Origin: Rhodanobacter glycinis | GTDB lineage: Bacteria > Pseudomonadota > Gammaproteobacteria > Xanthomonadales > Rhodanobacteraceae | Assembly: GCF_900114325.1 (NCBI RefSeq) | Contig: NZ_FOSR01000010.1 | Coordinates: forward strand, 1-64,000 | Direction of reading: 5' to 3' | DNA: 64,000 nucleotides | Shown here: one piece after another, positions 3,019 to 40,885 of the stretch | How positions within the stretch are numbered: the first letter of the stretch is position 1 | Layout of the letters: each line of letters begins with the position of its first letter | The notes under the pieces: generated by a model | The model's input: the letters and a program-made list of their open reading frames with translations, nothing else | What the model was told of the DNA's origin: nothing | Database searches by the model: none | Made by a program: the position numbers and the translations under genes

Positions 3019-4221
3019 ATGAGCGCCGATATCCCCGCCGACATCGCTTCCGCCACCCGCGCCGTGCGCGCCGGCATCGAATCCGATACCCAGCACGGTG
3101 CCGTGGTGCCGCCGTTGCATCTGTCCACCAACTACAGTTTCGAGGGCTTTGGCCGCAAGCGCGCGTACGACTATTCGCGCAGCGGCAATCCCACCCGTGA
3201 CCTGTTGGCCAATGCCCTGGCCGAGCTGGAACAGGGCGTCGGTGCCGTGATCACGGCCAGCGGCATGGCGGCCGTCGCGCTGGCTCTGGAACTGGTGCCG
3301 GCCGGTGGCCTGGTGTTGGCTGCGCATGATTGCTACGGCGGCACGTGGCGCCTGCTGGATGCGTGGGCGAAGAAGGGCCGCTTCCGCGTGCAGTTCGCCG
3401 ATCTCACCGACAGCGTGGCGCTGGCTGAAGGGCTGGCCAGCAAGCCGGCACTGGTATGGGTGGAGACGCCCTCCAACCCGCTGTTGCGCATCACCGACGT
3501 TCGCCACGTCGCACAGGCGGCCCATGCCGTGGGCGCGCTGGTGGTGGTGGACAACACCTTCCTGTCGCCTGCGCTGCAGCAGCCGTTGACGCTGGGCGCC
3601 GATGTGGTGGTGCACTCCACCACCAAGTACATCAATGGCCACAGCGATGTGGTCGGCGGTGCCGTGGTGGCGCGCGATGCGGCGGTGGCCGAGCAACTGA
3701 AATGGTGGGGTAATTGCAACGGCCTCACCGGCGCGCCCTTCGACAGTTTCCTCACCCTGCGTGGCCTGCGGACGCTGAACGTACGCCTGCGCCAGCATCA
3801 GGAAAATGCCGTGCGTATCGCCAGCCGTCTGGACGGCCATGCGGCCGTTCGAAAGGTCTATTACCCCGGGCTTGAGTATCACCCCGGGCATGCGTTGGCG
3901 GCACGCCAGCAGCAGGGTTTTGGCGCCATGCTGAGTTTCGAGCTGGAGGGCGACGAGACGCAGATCGAGGCGTTCGTCGATGGCCTGCAGTTCTTCTCGC
4001 TGGCCGAGTCGCTTGGCGGAGTGGAAAGCCTGGTGGCCCATCCGGCCACGATGACGCATGCGGCGATGACGCCGGACGCGCGCCGCCAGGCGGGCATCGC
4101 CGATTCGCTGCTGCGTCTGTCGGTAGGCATCGAGGATGGTGCCGATCTGCTGCGTGACCTCGATGCCGCGCTGTTGCGCGCCCAGGCCGCCGGGGAATCC
4201 AAACGCCGGGTGAGTGCATGA
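3019..4221 (+). CDS. metB: cystathionine gamma-synthase / O-succinylhomoserine sulfhydrylase family
   Basis: Fold-type I PLP enzyme of the Cys/Met metabolism family, 400 aa. It joins O-succinylhomoserine to cysteine to give cystathionine, or takes sulfide directly if it acts as a sulfhydrylase. Seen: YDYSRSGNPTR near the N-terminus, the SGMAA phosphate-binding loop, DNTFLSP, and the Schiff-base Lys203 in HSTTKYINGHSD. The C-terminal ESLGGVESL and LLRLSVGIED are typical of the family. The ATG at 3019 is preferred; an in-frame GTG at 3004 would overlap the metX stop. The gene is tightly coupled to metX before it and overlaps hom by 4 bases (ATGA). Confidence 0.92.
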   Translation: MSADIPADIASATRAVRAGIESDTQHGAVVPPLHLSTNYSFEGFGRKRAYDYSRSGNPTRDLLANALAELEQGVGAVITASGMAAVALALELVPAGGLVLAAHDCYGGTWRLLDAWAKKGRFRVQFADLTDSVALAEGLASKPALVWVETPSNPLLRITDVRHVAQAAHAVGALVVVDNTFLSPALQQPLTLGADVVVHSTTKYINGHSDVVGGAVVARDAAVAEQLKWWGNCNGLTGAPFDSFLTLRGLRTLNVRLRQHQENAVRIASRLDGHAAVRKVYYPGLEYHPGHALAARQQQGFGAMLSFELEGDETQIEAFVDGLQFFSLAESLGGVESLVAHPATMTHAAMTPDARRQAGIADSLLRLSVGIEDGADLLRDLDAALLRAQAAGESKRRVSA

Positions 4222-7243: not shown

Positions 7244-7269
7244 TATCGCTTCATCGCGAACAAGAGATA
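7244..7269. promoter_or_regulatory. 26-bp palindromic operator before metF
   Basis: Arms TATCGCTT and AAGAGATA (TATCnCTT / AAGnGATA) flank a 10-bp centre. Aligned over 26 columns with the sites before metK (37869-37894) and metE (40669-40694), 14 columns are identical in all three. The site lies 33 bases before the metF ATG and overlaps a possible -10 (TTTAAT, 7239-7244). It fits a repressor operator of a methionine regulon; an ArsR-family regulator (SahR/SamR type) is the leading candidate, by inference. Confidence 0.6.
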
Positions 7270-7302: not shown

Positions 7303-8127
7303 ATGCCGTCGATCAGCTTCGAATTCTTCCCGCCCAAGACCGATGAACAACGCGCCCAGCTCGATCGCGTGGCCGCCGCACTGCAGCCCGCGGCGCCCGA
7401 ATACGTGTCGGTGACCTTCGGCGCGGGTGGTTCCACGCTCAGCTATACCTCCGACACCGTGCGCGGACTGCACCAGCAGCACGGTTTCCACGTCGCGCCG
7501 CATTTGTCGTGCATGGGTGGCAGTCGCGCGGAGATTGCCGCGCTGCTGGACGAGTACCGTGCCGCCGGTTACCGGCGCATCGTGGCGCTGCGTGGCGACT
7601 TGCCCTCGGGCATGGCCTCGGCCGGCGATTTCCGCTATGCCGCCGAGCTGGTTCGTTTCATCCGCGAGCACTCGGGTGATCATTTTCACGTCGAGGTGGC
7701 GGCCTATCCGGAGACCCACCCGCAGGCGGAAGACGCGCTGGTGGACTTGCGCCACTTCAAGGCCAAGATCGACGCCGGCGCGAATGGCGCGATCACGCAA
7801 TACTTCTTCAACCCCGATGCCTATTTCCACTTCGTCGATGATGCGCAGCGCCTGGGCGTGAAGGTGCCGATCGTGCCGGGCATCATGCCGATCACCAACT
7901 ACAGCCAGCTCAAACGCTTTTCCGACGCCTGTGGCGCGGAGATCCCGCGCTGGATCGCCAAGCGCATGCAGGCGCATGGCGACGATGCGGCCTCGATCCG
8001 CGCGCTGGGTGCGGAGGTGGTGGCGCAGATGTGCCTGCGCCTGCTCGATGGCGGAGCGCCGGGGCTGCACTTCTACACGCTCAATCGCGCCAGGGCGACG
8101 CTCGCGGTGCTGGAACGGCTGCACTGA
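7303..8127 (+). CDS. metF: 5,10-methylenetetrahydrofolate reductase
   Basis: FAD-dependent TIM-barrel enzyme that reduces 5,10-methylene-THF to 5-methyl-THF, the methyl donor for MetE; 274 aa. Seen: the catalytic-region SFEFFPPKT at residues 4-12, VSVTFGAGGST, the FAD-binding YRRIVALRGDLP, and the stretch GANGAITQYFFNPDAYFHF. Length matches bacterial MetF (about 270-300 aa). It is monocistronic or followed by a small DUF4124 gene 31 bases later. The ATG has only a weak ribosome site. The 26-bp operator shared with metK and metE lies just upstream, so it is likely a member of the same regulon. Confidence 0.95.
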   Translation: MPSISFEFFPPKTDEQRAQLDRVAAALQPAAPEYVSVTFGAGGSTLSYTSDTVRGLHQQHGFHVAPHLSCMGGSRAEIAALLDEYRAAGYRRIVALRGDLPSGMASAGDFRYAAELVRFIREHSGDHFHVEVAAYPETHPQAEDALVDLRHFKAKIDAGANGAITQYFFNPDAYFHFVDDAQRLGVKVPIVPGIMPITNYSQLKRFSDACGAEIPRWIAKRMQAHGDDAASIRALGAEVVAQMCLRLLDGGAPGLHFYTLNRARATLAVLERLH

Positions 8128-12441: not shown

Positions 12442-12519
12442 TCCGGGCGCCGTTGGAACGGGAAGCGTCCATCGAGCCTGGCCGTCTCTGTGCACGGTCG
12501 CAGCGCCCCTCGATGGGAA
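12442..12519 (-). ncRNA. SAH riboswitch before ahcY
   Basis: Reading the minus strand, the conserved SAH-aptamer blocks appear in order: CGAGGGGCGCTGCGACCG, CCAGGCTCGATGG, and the pseudoknot partner AACGGCGCCCGG, ending about 40 bases before the ahcY ATG. CGAG pairs with CTCG to form P1, and GGGCGC pairs with GCGCCC. SAH riboswitches turn genes on when SAH accumulates, which fits AhcY as the enzyme that removes it. The ribosome site lies downstream in the stretch CCCGGAGATATTC, so control is probably of translation. Confidence 0.9.
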
Positions 12520-37868: not shown

Positions 37869-37894
37869 TATCCTTCTTTACGGATAAAGAGATG
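37869..37894. promoter_or_regulatory. 26-bp palindromic operator before metK
   Basis: On the coding strand the site runs from CATCTCTTTATCC to AAGGATA, with TTTATCC and GGATAAA as a perfect 7-bp inverted repeat at its core. It matches the metE site at about 20 of 26 columns, including CTTTATCCG, and the metF site at 14 or more. It lies at about +8 to +33 from the predicted transcript start and partly covers the ribosome site, a position suited to a repressor. Confidence 0.65.
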
Positions 37895-38038: not shown

Positions 38039-40315
38039 TCAGGCGGCGACCTCCAGTTCGCTGCGAACCTCGCGCGCGGCAGCGACCATCGCATTGAGCG
38101 CCGGGGTCACCTCGGCCCAGCCGCGGGTTTTCAGTCCGCAATCGGGATTCACCCACAATTGCGCCGGATCGAGCACGCGTAGCGCCAGCCGCAGCAAGTC
38201 GGCCATTTCCTCGCGGCCGGGCACGCGCGGCGAGTGGATGTCGTACACGCCGGGCCCGATGCCGCCGGGGTAGCGGTAGCGCTCGAAGGCGTCGAGCAGT
38301 TCCATACGCGAGCGGCTGCTTTCGATCGAGATGACGTCGGCATCCAGCGCGGCTACCGCATCGATGATCGCGTTGAATTCGCTGTAGCACATGTGGGTGT
38401 GGATCTGGGTGGCGTCGGCCACGCCGCCGGCGGTGATGCGGAAGCAGGTGACGGCCCAGTCCAGGTAATGCGCCTGCTCGGCATGGCGCAGCGGCAGGCC
38501 TTCGCGCAGGGCCGGTTCGTCGATCTGGATGATGCCGATGCCGGCAGCTTCCAGATCGTGCACCTCGTCGCGCAGGGCCAGGGCCAGCTGGCGGCAGACG
38601 GTTTCGCGCGGCAGGTCGTCGCGCACGAACGACCATTGCAGCACCGTCACCGGACCGGTAAGCATGCCCTTGACCGGCTTCTCGGTCAGCGACTGCGCGT
38701 AGCTCGACCAGCGGACGGTCATCGGTGCGGGACGCGCCACGTCGCCCCAGATGATCGGCGGTTTCACGCAGCGCGAGCCGTAGCTCTGCACCCAGCCGTG
38801 GCGGGTGAAGGCGAAGCCGTCGAGCTGCTCGCCGAAGTACTCCACCATGTCGTTGCGCTCGGGCTCGCCGTGTACCAGCACGTCGAGGCCAGCCGCTTCC
38901 TGCTGCTGCAACACTTGGCGGATCTCGTCGGCCAGCACCTGTTCGTAGGCCTTGTCGTCGAGGCGGCCGGCGCGATGATCGGCGCGGGCGCGACGCAGCG
39001 TTTCGGTTTGCGGAAACGAGCCGATGGTGGTGGTGGGCAGCAGCGGCAGCGGGCGCACTTCGGCCTGCACGGCACGCCGGTGCAGGTAGGCGGAACGGCG
39101 TTGCGCCGCCTGCGCGCTGAGGCCATGCAGGCGGGCGCGGACGTCGTTGCGCTGCACGCCGGCGGTGCTGGCGCGGTCGGCGAGGCGAGCGGCCTGTGCC
39201 TGCAGCGCTTGCGCGGCCTCGTCCTGACCGTCCAGCGCGCGGGCGTAGAGCTGTTGTTCCTCCAGCTTCTGCACGCCGAAGGCGAGCCAGCCGCGCAGCT
39301 CGTCGGGCAGGCCGGTTTCCTGTCCGGCATCCAGCGGCACATGCAGTAGCGAGCACGATGGCGCCAGCCACAGGCGATCGCGACCAAGCTTGTCCAGCGC
39401 CTTGTGCAGCAACGGCAGCACCTTGCGCGGCGAGCTGCGCCAGATGTTGCGGCCATCGACGACACCGACGCTGAGCACGCGCTCGGCAGGCAGTGCGGCG
39501 AGCACCGCGTCGAGCTGCTCCGGTGCGCGGGCCAGATCGATGTGCAGACCGTCCACTGGCAATTCGGTGGCCAGCGCGAGGTTGTCGTCCAGCGCGCCGA
39601 AGTAGGTGGCAAGCAGGCGCTTCGGCGACGCACCGAGTGCCAGCGCCGCGTAGGCGGTGGCGTAGGCGTGGCGCGTGGGCGCGTCCAGGTCCAGCGTGAG
39701 GCAGGGCTCGTCCAGTTGCACCCAGGCCACGCCGGCTTCGTGCAGTTTTTCCAGCAGCGCGATGTAGGCGGGCAGCAATGCATCGAGCAGGGCCAGCGGA
39801 TCGCTGCCGTCGGTGGTCTTGGCCAGTTTCAGGAACGATACCGGTCCGAGCAGCACCGGCCGCGCGTCCAGGCCCAGCGCCTGCGCCTCGCGGCATTCGG
39901 CCAGCGGCTTGTCGCCGGCGAGGCGGAAGCGCTGGCCGGCGTGCAGTTCGGGCACGAGGTAGTGGTAGTTGGTGTCGAACCACTTGGTCATTTCCAGCGC
40001 GTGCAAACCATCGCCGCCGCGCGCCATGGCGAAGTAGCCGGCCAGCGGATCGGCGGCGAGGAGGGCGCGGTAGCGTTCGGGCACGGCATCGAACAGCACG
40101 GCGGTGTCGAGCACGTGGTCGTACAGCGAGAAGTCGTTCACCGGCACGCTGTCGGCGCCGGCGTCGCGGGCCAGATTCCAGTGGCGTGCGCGCAGGTCGC
40201 GGGCGGTGTCGAGCAGGGCGGTGGCGTTGCCATCGCGCCAGTAGGTTTCGAGGGCGCGCTTGAGTTCGCGTCGGCGACCCATGCGCGGAAAGCCGAGGCA
40301 GGTGGTGCGTGTCAT
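38039..40315 (-). CDS. metE: cobalamin-independent methionine synthase
   Basis: Transfers methyl from 5-methyl-THF-triglutamate to homocysteine using zinc; 758 aa with two TIM-barrel halves. Seen: N-terminal GFPRMGRRRELKRALE, the C-terminal barrel start TTTIGSFPQTETLRRAR, ERNDMVEYFGEQLDGF, the zinc-ligand region QIHTHMCYSEFN (His and Cys), and CGLKTRGWAE with the third ligand Cys. The ATG giving MTRTTCLGF follows a GAGGAA site; the frame is open upstream into the leader without conservation. Its 570-base upstream region holds a cobalamin riboswitch, a 26-bp operator, a promoter and MetJ-like boxes, so repression by B12 and by methionine status is expected. Confidence 0.97.
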   Translation of the reverse strand: MTRTTCLGFPRMGRRRELKRALETYWRDGNATALLDTARDLRARHWNLARDAGADSVPVNDFSLYDHVLDTAVLFDAVPERYRALLAADPLAGYFAMARGGDGLHALEMTKWFDTNYHYLVPELHAGQRFRLAGDKPLAECREAQALGLDARPVLLGPVSFLKLAKTTDGSDPLALLDALLPAYIALLEKLHEAGVAWVQLDEPCLTLDLDAPTRHAYATAYAALALGASPKRLLATYFGALDDNLALATELPVDGLHIDLARAPEQLDAVLAALPAERVLSVGVVDGRNIWRSSPRKVLPLLHKALDKLGRDRLWLAPSCSLLHVPLDAGQETGLPDELRGWLAFGVQKLEEQQLYARALDGQDEAAQALQAQAARLADRASTAGVQRNDVRARLHGLSAQAAQRRSAYLHRRAVQAEVRPLPLLPTTTIGSFPQTETLRRARADHRAGRLDDKAYEQVLADEIRQVLQQQEAAGLDVLVHGEPERNDMVEYFGEQLDGFAFTRHGWVQSYGSRCVKPPIIWGDVARPAPMTVRWSSYAQSLTEKPVKGMLTGPVTVLQWSFVRDDLPRETVCRQLALALRDEVHDLEAAGIGIIQIDEPALREGLPLRHAEQAHYLDWAVTCFRITAGGVADATQIHTHMCYSEFNAIIDAVAALDADVISIESSRSRMELLDAFERYRYPGGIGPGVYDIHSPRVPGREEMADLLRLALRVLDPAQLWVNPDCGLKTRGWAEVTPALNAMVAAAREVRSELEVAA

Positions 40316-40504
40316 GTGGAATTCCTCTTGCGTAATGGTGCAAAGAGGAACGAAGGGCGATTGCGTGCCGTGAGGCGGGCGCAAGCGTCGACCTTCGCCC
40401 CCGCGGGCGAACCGGGCCACATGGCAGGACTGCGTCGCCAGGCGACCGCCTTCCCGCCACGAAACCCAGGCCGGACGAGGCGCGGCCTTGCGGGGCGCGC
40501 TTCG

Positions 40505-40705
40505 GCCAAGGCAGGTCTTCGGGCTCGTGGATATGGCTCAGGACACCTGAGCCGCCTAATGCCCGCCGCTTCCCGAACCAGATTTCCTGGCCCAGTGCGA
40601 TGGCGGGGGTCGTTTCCACATACCGCTGCGGGGCAGCGCCGGATTCGCACCGGCTTCCCTTTTCATTTCATCTCTCTATTCGGATAAAGGGATGAAAACC
40701 TTGGC
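40505..40705 (-). ncRNA. adenosylcobalamin riboswitch before metE
   Basis: On the minus strand the diagnostic blocks are clear: AAGGGAAGCCGGTGCGAATC, then CCGGCGCTGCCCCGCAGCGG, and the 3' B12 box AGCCCGAAGACCTGCC. P1 closes between GCCAAGG (5', plus 40699-40705) and CCTTGGC (3', plus 40505-40511). High B12 would shut off metE in favour of MetH, the usual logic. The predicted promoter starts transcription about 3 bases before P1. About 190 bases separate the aptamer from the ATG; no obvious U-tract terminator was found there. The P2 arm coincides with a 26-bp putative operator. Confidence 0.95.
40669..40694. promoter_or_regulatory. 26-bp palindromic operator inside the cobalamin riboswitch P2 arm
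   Basis: The sequence runs from CATCTCTCTATT to AAAGGGATG on the plus strand; read on the metE strand it begins CATCCCTTTATCCG and ends AGAGATG. It aligns without gaps to the metK (37869) and metF (7244) sites. It lies about 14-39 bases after the predicted start of transcription. Because the P2 arm is the variable part of cobalamin riboswitches, the same bases can serve as RNA hairpin and DNA operator. Confidence 0.6.
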
Positions 40706-40714
40706 GTGACGAAG

Positions 40715-40742
40715 ATTAGACGTATGGACGTCCATCTGTCAA
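40715..40742 (-). promoter_or_regulatory. metE promoter
   Basis: On the minus strand, consensus TTGACA (40737-40742), a 16-base spacer and TCTAAT (40715-40720, 5 of 6 matches to TATAAT). The transcript would start near 40708, at the 5' edge of the riboswitch. Confidence 0.72.
40718..40741. promoter_or_regulatory. MetJ-like met-box array at the metE promoter
   Basis: Three contiguous 8-bp units, AGACGTAT, GGACGTCC and ATCTGTCA (plus strand), contain the perfect palindrome ATGGACGTCCAT (40724-40735) lying between the -35 and -10 boxes. GACGTATGGACGTC is identical to the array before metX. Binding here would directly block RNA polymerase. Confidence 0.65.
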
Positions 40743-40885
40743 ACGCCGTGATGGCTGCGCTGCAAGCCCTCCCTTGATCGCTGGCCTGGAGCATGAGGCG
40801 CTGTCACGCCGCTGACGCATGGGCGCAACGCCAGCGTCCGGGAAATCGCGCAATCTTGCGACGGGCCAAGCCGACGGGTACCGAC

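Follow-up and report, generated by a model that had tools for sequence, protein, structure and literature searches.

A putative SamR operator nested in the P2 arm of the metE cobalamin riboswitch of Rhodanobacter glycinis and related bacteria

Introduction

The leader of metE in Rhodanobacter glycinis raises the question of whether the same letters can serve as a protein-binding site in DNA and as a helix of a riboswitch in RNA. A first-pass annotation of the window, which is the complete 64,000-nucleotide stretch of DNA analysed here, had proposed such a dual use for a palindrome in the P2 arm of a cobalamin riboswitch. The P2 arms of cobalamin riboswitches vary. One sequence would be subject to two independent constraints, recognition by a protein as DNA and formation of a helix as RNA, and related genomes offer natural controls: the operator without the riboswitch, the riboswitch without the operator, and apparently both side by side.

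Results

The metE gene is preceded by a complete cobalamin riboswitch

The riboswitch that had been claimed before metE is confirmed by the covariance model RF00174, which matches with 111 bits, relative to a gathering score of 31.5, over model positions 1–189 that make up the full aptamer. It is the single cobalamin match at the gathering score in the whole window. As a correction to the earlier description, metE and the riboswitch are both encoded on the minus strand. The first base of the P1 segment GCCAAGG is at position 40705, and in the predicted fold of the free leader RNA the P2 arm is stacked directly on P1. The gene is flanked by metK and an acyltransferase gene.

40493–40718, minus strand: cobalamin riboswitch aptamer before metE (RF00174, 111 bits, E = 5.8e-27, full length)
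38039–40315, minus strand: metE, cobalamin-independent methionine synthase (PF01717 and PF08267; TIGR01371 over its cut-off)

The metE of the window resembles the gene of another genus (86%) more than those of members of its own genus (72–75%), which could reflect either a transfer between lineages or a split genus. The window that contains the control sites of metE, metK, and metF also harbors a SAM (S box) riboswitch at 1773–1887 on the plus strand and a SAH riboswitch at 12517–12438 on the minus strand.

The P2 arm contains a palindrome shared with metK, metF, and samR

The 26-bp palindrome reported from the P2 arm is present at 40669–40694, with 20 of its 26 positions symmetric, and its 24-bp core at 40670–40693 is symmetric at 18 of 24 positions. 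The outer pairs TTTTC/GAAAT of P2 are paired, yet they lie beyond the 24-bp operator. A search with a 28-base pattern allowing at most three mismatches retrieved the copy in the metE leader alone from the window, with none expected from shuffled sequences.

40670–40693, minus strand: 24-bp SamR-type operator ATCCCTTTATCCGAATAGAGAGAT nested in the P2 arm (matrix score 39.3, site in the training set; hairpin in the predicted fold)
40665–40698, minus strand: P2 arm, consisting of the operator and the outer pairs TTTTC/GAAAT (symmetric at 26 of 34 positions; covariation of the outer pairs within the family)
37870–37893, minus strand: SamR-type operator before metK, without a cobalamin riboswitch (score 32.8, site in the training set)
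7245–7268, plus strand: SamR-type operator before metF, without a cobalamin riboswitch (score 20.2, outside the training set)

The gap-free likeness to palindromes that precede metK and metF without a riboswitch, which had also been put forward, holds: 19 of 24 positions of the metK operator and 16 of 24 positions of the metF operator are identical to those of the metE operator. The metF gene corresponds to the open reading frame 7303–8127, whose name is derived from the first-pass annotation and from a reading of its first residues by eye. A further copy located before samR, elsewhere in the genome, is identical at 18 of 24 positions and has a score of 28.4. The score matrix was trained on 13 sites of metE leaders and a single metK site, 14 in all, and therefore the scores of metE sites are partly circular. 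The samR and metF sites are independent of the training set, and their scores of 28.4 and 20.2 exceed those from 20 shuffles of the window, none of which was above 11.3. Palindromes of 24 bp with the ends ATC...GAT are thus found before samR, metK, metF, and metE.

SamR has been described as an ArsR-type, SahR-like regulator of methionine genes in Xanthomonadales, encoded near metH, with a 24-bp palindrome and the targets metK, metF, and metE (Leyn et al. 2014, PMC4239095). According to the accessible text of that study, metE is under the control of SamR in Xylella and mostly of MetR otherwise, and the effector of SamR is still to be determined. The genome of R. glycinis encodes a 308-residue protein composed of an ArsR-type helix-turn-helix and a methyltransferase domain. 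Its gene adjoins an open reading frame that was identified by eye as MetH-like, and the palindrome is positioned just before its start. Since the fold, the neighbors, and the motif agree, the protein is probably SamR. An ArsR-type regulator had been the candidate of the first-pass annotation, and it is supported by the published operator class and by the presence of SamR relatives in all 60 genomes of the family that have metE.

The nested operator is found in metE leaders and recurs in a second family

The family of the window was sampled in 157 genomes, of which 60 contain metE at E ≤ 1e-100. A cobalamin riboswitch was detected in 54 of the 60 metE leaders, and the P2 arm of 46 of these contains the operator, with scores of at least 24.4. 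Six of the other eight riboswitches have no operator, and two have degenerate ones (scores 0.2 and 6.4); some aptamers have a quite different P2. The remaining six metE leaders, in which no riboswitch was detected, comprise three with the operator and three without it, one of which ends at a contig end. Predicted control of metE by SamR is thus extended to 49 of the 60 leaders, 46 with a nested operator and three without a riboswitch. The leaders L114, L119, and L125 are those of metE genes with a SamR-type operator and no cobalamin riboswitch at the gathering score. The operator was found before metK in 50 of 50 leaders examined (50 of the 60 genomes; scores 18.9–35.3) and before samR in 30 of 30 (30 of the 60 genomes). 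By contrast, none of the 23 non-metE cobalamin riboswitches of the same family that were scored, out of 46 such non-metE matches from 20 genomes, contains the operator.

The absence of a regulator was considered as the cause of the operator-less leaders and rejected, both for SamR and for MetJ, because SamR relatives and MetJ are present in 60 of the 60 genomes with metE.

Among 398 genomes of the order, 92 matched a pattern that combines the operator with the aptamer core, a lower bound because an exact match was demanded; the sample includes genomes without metE. The reversed pattern used as a control matched none. By row count, the 92 genomes are divided into 49 from the family of the window and 43 from a second family. 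Twenty of the 43 matches were fetched, and all 20 precede metE. As judged from these sequences, nesting recurs in the second family of the order. Within a sample of 369 genomes of the class, in which genomes lacking metE or the riboswitch are kept in the denominator, two match the nested pattern, namely the window and a further genome from its order; the 364 genomes from outside the order gave no match. Carriers of the nested operator include Luteibacter jiangsuensis, Dyella sp. ASV24, Xanthomonas massiliensis, Luteimonas wenzhouensis, and Pseudoxanthomonas sp. z9, and Dokdonella fugitiva is without it. Luteibacter belongs to the Rhodanobacteraceae and Xanthomonas to the Lysobacteraceae, both from the order Lysobacterales.

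The metE leader of Lysobacter sp. Root916 (L021, around position 3575) contains the palindrome ATCGCTTCATAAAGATGAAGCGAT, which resembles the operator, at the 5' edge of the aptamer match. Inspected by eye and without a matrix score, the palindrome lies outside P2 and 48 bp from TTGAC. It is apparently an un-nested variant with the operator beside the aptamer.

The P2 copies conserve both the letters and the pairing

The palindrome is conserved across the metE, metK, and samR leaders compared, and in the P2 copies the conservation of letters is combined with covariation, the pattern that had been suggested as a check of dual use. P2 operators with matrix scores above 20 were counted. Pairs 1–3 (ATC/GAT) and 9–10 show no variation among the 46 P2 operators or among the 30 samR operators. 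In the metK operators, pairs 1–3 and 10 are kept in 50 of 50 sites, and pair 9 forms in eight of 50.

Core pairs 4–8 are paired in 209 of 230 cells of the P2 copies, compared to 99 of 150 in samR and 177 of 250 in metK operators. When the letters of the 3' half were redealt, the observed core value was reached in 0 of 1000 shuffles for P2, 923 of 1000 for samR, and 997 of 1000 for metK, counts that are not probabilities because the genomes are related. The four outer pairs are formed in 168 of 184 cells in P2, 61 of 120 in samR, and 101 of 200 in metK operators, and the corresponding shuffles reached the observed value in 0, 65, and 13 of 1000, which are likewise counts. The free-standing operators therefore show a slight excess of outer pairs.

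The difference is maintained at the level of genera, which were compared by sign tests in the 17 genomes with P2 and samR sites and the 40 with P2 and metK sites. Core pairing is higher in P2 than in samR operators in 10 of 13 genera (three ties) and than in metK operators in 12 of 16 (four ties). Outer pairing is higher in P2 in 12 of 13 genera relative to samR (one tie) and in 16 of 16 relative to metK; among single genomes, the opposite direction was observed in one of 17 and one of 40, respectively.

In the second family, 88 of 100 core cells and 76 of 80 outer cells of the P2 copies are paired, and no shuffle out of 1000 reached either value. The operator is present in 19 of 20 samR leaders of this family, the twentieth scoring 8.8. 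These samR operators have 61 of 95 core cells (834 of 1000 shuffles) and 58 of 76 outer cells (18 of 1000 shuffles) paired. Pairs 1–3 and 9–10 of the second-family P2 copies were fixed by the search pattern, and their invariance there is therefore by construction. At pair 4, T-A and C-G predominate in the first family, and G-C predominates in the second.

Compensatory pairing in the core is found only in the P2 copies, the half-site letters of which are as in the samR operators. The symmetry of the core may in part be a property of metE operators, because core symmetry is also fairly high where a metE operator occurs without a riboswitch (three operators, 13 of 15 cells paired); the outer pairs of these operators lack such symmetry (six of 12 cells). 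An excess of G-U over A-C mismatches is a strand-specific sign of selection on RNA. The ratio is 25:14 in P2, and it was rejected as proof of such selection since the skew is weak and the controls are similar (89:62 in metK and 36:29 in samR).

The proposed dual use as an operator and an RNA hairpin is thus backed by comparative evidence from 46 of 54 leaders and from the second family; however, it is not universal, because eight of the 54 metE riboswitches are without the operator letters. Riboswitches in which P2 pairs without these letters had been named as the case that would speak against dual use. They do occur, in the same eight leaders, and do not overturn the 46 others.

The operator has a fixed distance from a promoter with MetJ-like boxes

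The first-pass annotation had placed a promoter and MetJ-like boxes immediately upstream of the riboswitch. A consensus promoter scan at the metE leader scored no promoter, and therefore the promoter call rests on the sequence TTGAC, which occupies a steady place in 54 of 54 metE leaders of the family. The boxes were recovered with 13 of 16 positions matching.

40737–40742, minus strand: -35 element TTGACA of the metE promoter (TTGAC at a steady place in the leaders)
40713–40718, minus strand: putative -10 element TAATCT (placed from the sequence)
40718–40733, minus strand: MetJ-like double box GGACGTCCATACGTCT in the spacer between the -35 and -10 elements (13 of 16 positions matching two copies of AGACGTCT)

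The two promoter elements are separated by 18 bp, and transcription would start at approximately position 40706, at the first base of P1. The distance from TTGAC to the start of the operator is 47–50 bp in all 46 operator-bearing leaders of the family and 46–49 bp in 19 of 20 leaders of the second family; the twentieth was measured from a chance TTGAC inside the leader.

In 1080 shuffles of the spacer, matches to the double box reached at most 11 of 16. The genome encodes a MetJ homolog (PF01340, E = 1.5e-33), and a MetJ domain is present in 60 of 60 genomes with metE; adjacent MET boxes near AGACGTCT thus occur together with a gene for the MetJ repressor. All eight operator-less leaders have MetJ-like double boxes with 13 or 14 of 16 matches at or near the spacer. 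Together with the MetJ homolog, these strong boxes make the MetJ-like boxes before metE credible as predicted MetJ sites. Only two of the 46 operator-bearing leaders, those of the window and of one other genome, have a box with at least 13 of 16 matches. The strength of the boxes differs according to the presence of the operator (Mann-Whitney p = 1.8e-5, calculated for genomes that are not independent); however, the rank correlation between box and operator scores over the 54 leaders is not significant (rho = -0.16, p = 0.24). From this distribution, MetJ boxes seem to substitute for the SamR site in leaders that lack it. In the simplest reading of these sequences, one methionine regulator would have been exchanged for another around a constant riboswitch, and the window would represent the state with both. 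The three control layers anticipated for this leader are accordingly present as candidates: MetJ-like boxes, the operator, and the riboswitch.

The MetJ homolog (L095:1444–2055, plus strand, contig C26; L334–L341) has a lysine- and alanine-rich, histone-H1-like tail after the MetJ domain. The tail is present in nine of nine family members read, and that encoded by the genome of the window matches HC2 at a score under the curated cut-off.

The output of the riboswitch is likely translational

40322–40350, minus strand: predicted hairpin TTCCTC...GAGGAA over the Shine-Dalgarno sequence of metE (predicted folds)

Folding was carried out for 51 of the 54 leaders, the other three being without a start found; a few start codons are apparently too far downstream. 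A loose pattern of CCTC...GAGGA followed by a start is present in 54 of 54 leaders, a count made without a shuffle control. A rho-independent terminator was rejected as the expression platform, because none was scored on the minus strand in a scan of 40280–40860. The predicted Shine-Dalgarno hairpin together with this result makes translational control of metE likely.

Discussion

Very probably, a SamR operator is embedded in the P2 arm of the cobalamin riboswitch in the metE leader, which would place the gene under dual control. The basis of this reading in the sequence is the operator, its nesting, the fixed spacing from the promoter, the conservation of both letters and pairing, and the presence of the regulator genes. 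Binding and repression by SamR, its effector, the transcription start, the response to B12, and the translational output are deduced from it. SamR would be an ArsR-methyltransferase regulator, presumably a repressor, of methionine and SAM genes. In the DNA, the operator would occupy approximately +13 to +37, and SamR bound at this position would block either initiation or the first steps of elongation. In the transcript, the same letters would form P2 of the aptamer, which in the cobalamin-bound state would keep the Shine-Dalgarno hairpin closed. With SamR, and in this species MetJ bound to the double box in the promoter spacer as a third layer, acting on transcription and the riboswitch acting on translation, expression of metE would require low levels of both the SAM/SAH signal and B12. 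Since the aptamer begins at the predicted transcription start, the sequence-tolerant P2 is where a downstream operator would fall. Among the observations that count against dual control, eight of 54 metE riboswitches have no operator even though SamR is present, and pair 9, which is kept in P2 and samR operators, forms in only eight of 50 metK operators.

SamR and the aptamer could also be mechanically coupled through the shared letters of P2, to form one integrated sensor instead of two stacked ones. SamR at approximately +13 to +37 would then pause or block the polymerase as P1 and P2 emerge. If so, the state of the SAM pathway would set the amount of leader RNA as well as its folding and capture of B12. 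Such coupling is unlikely.

It is improbable that the site is a DNA operator alone and that the pairing in P2 is a by-product of the palindrome without a function in RNA. Any palindrome can pair, the skew of G-U over A-C mismatches is weak, and some aptamers have a quite different P2. However, the pairs beyond the operator covary in P2 to an extent not reached in samR or metK operators (168/184 versus 61/120 and 101/200), core covariation is limited to the P2 copies, and pair 4 differs between the two families (mostly T-A or C-G versus mostly G-C).

There is little chance that the operator serves a regulator other than SamR. The genome has 11 matches to ArsR-type domains, and the assignment of SamR among them is a prediction; however, the motif is located before samR itself in 30 of 30 leaders examined and in 19 of 20 of the second family, and the published SamR palindrome has these targets, as far as the accessible text of the study goes (PMC4239095).

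That the palindrome is a feature of RNA alone, the P2 hairpin of a riboswitch subfamily resembling SamR sites by chance, would account for the strong pairing and covariation and agree with the variability of P2 arms, but is highly improbable given that sites of the same type are found before samR, metK, and metF, where there is no cobalamin riboswitch, that it is absent from the 23 other cobalamin riboswitches, that L114, L119, and L125 combine it with metE and no riboswitch at the gathering score, and that the operator-like palindrome of Lysobacter sp. Root916 lies, by eye and without a matrix score, outside P2.

Nesting of the SamR operator in the riboswitch, the preferred reading, would show where a downstream operator can be accommodated if the predicted transcription start is also the first base of an aptamer. 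It also offers a system for measuring how much foreign constraint is tolerated by a riboswitch arm.

Comparison with known systems

All components of the metE leader are known; their combination, the nesting of an operator in the P2 arm of a riboswitch, has not been described in the literature found. No nested operator was reported among the matches listed, a search whose scope leaves aside supplements, preprints, and most subscription journals. The MetJ-like boxes resemble the MET-box repression of the E. coli type in that the genome encodes a MetJ domain and the spacer contains a double box similar to AGACGTCT; unlike in E. coli, the MetJ found here has the lysine- and alanine-rich, histone-H1-like tail. 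Table 1 of Leyn et al. 2014 lists no MetJ for Xanthomonadales (PMC4239095). In the hom-metXC operon of Oceanicaulis, a SAM_alpha riboswitch and the ArsR-type SahR act on one operon; however, the accessible text does not state that their sites overlap (PMC4239095). The nupR leader of Bacillus thuringiensis combines a purine riboswitch with operators of several transcription factors, but no nested and doubly constrained site is described in the accessible text (PMC9430930). The SamR regulon agrees with the system presented here in the ArsR-type regulator near metH, the 24-bp palindrome, and the targets metK, metF, and metE. It differs in that sites located inside the metE riboswitch across two families are not part of its accessible description, and neither "B12 riboswitch" nor "cobalamin riboswitch" is present in the main text (PMC4239095). 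Like other members of RF00174, the metE riboswitch has a full-length aptamer, matched with 111 bits; however, its P2 is a predicted transcription-factor operator, which is the case for none of the 23 non-metE copies from the family.
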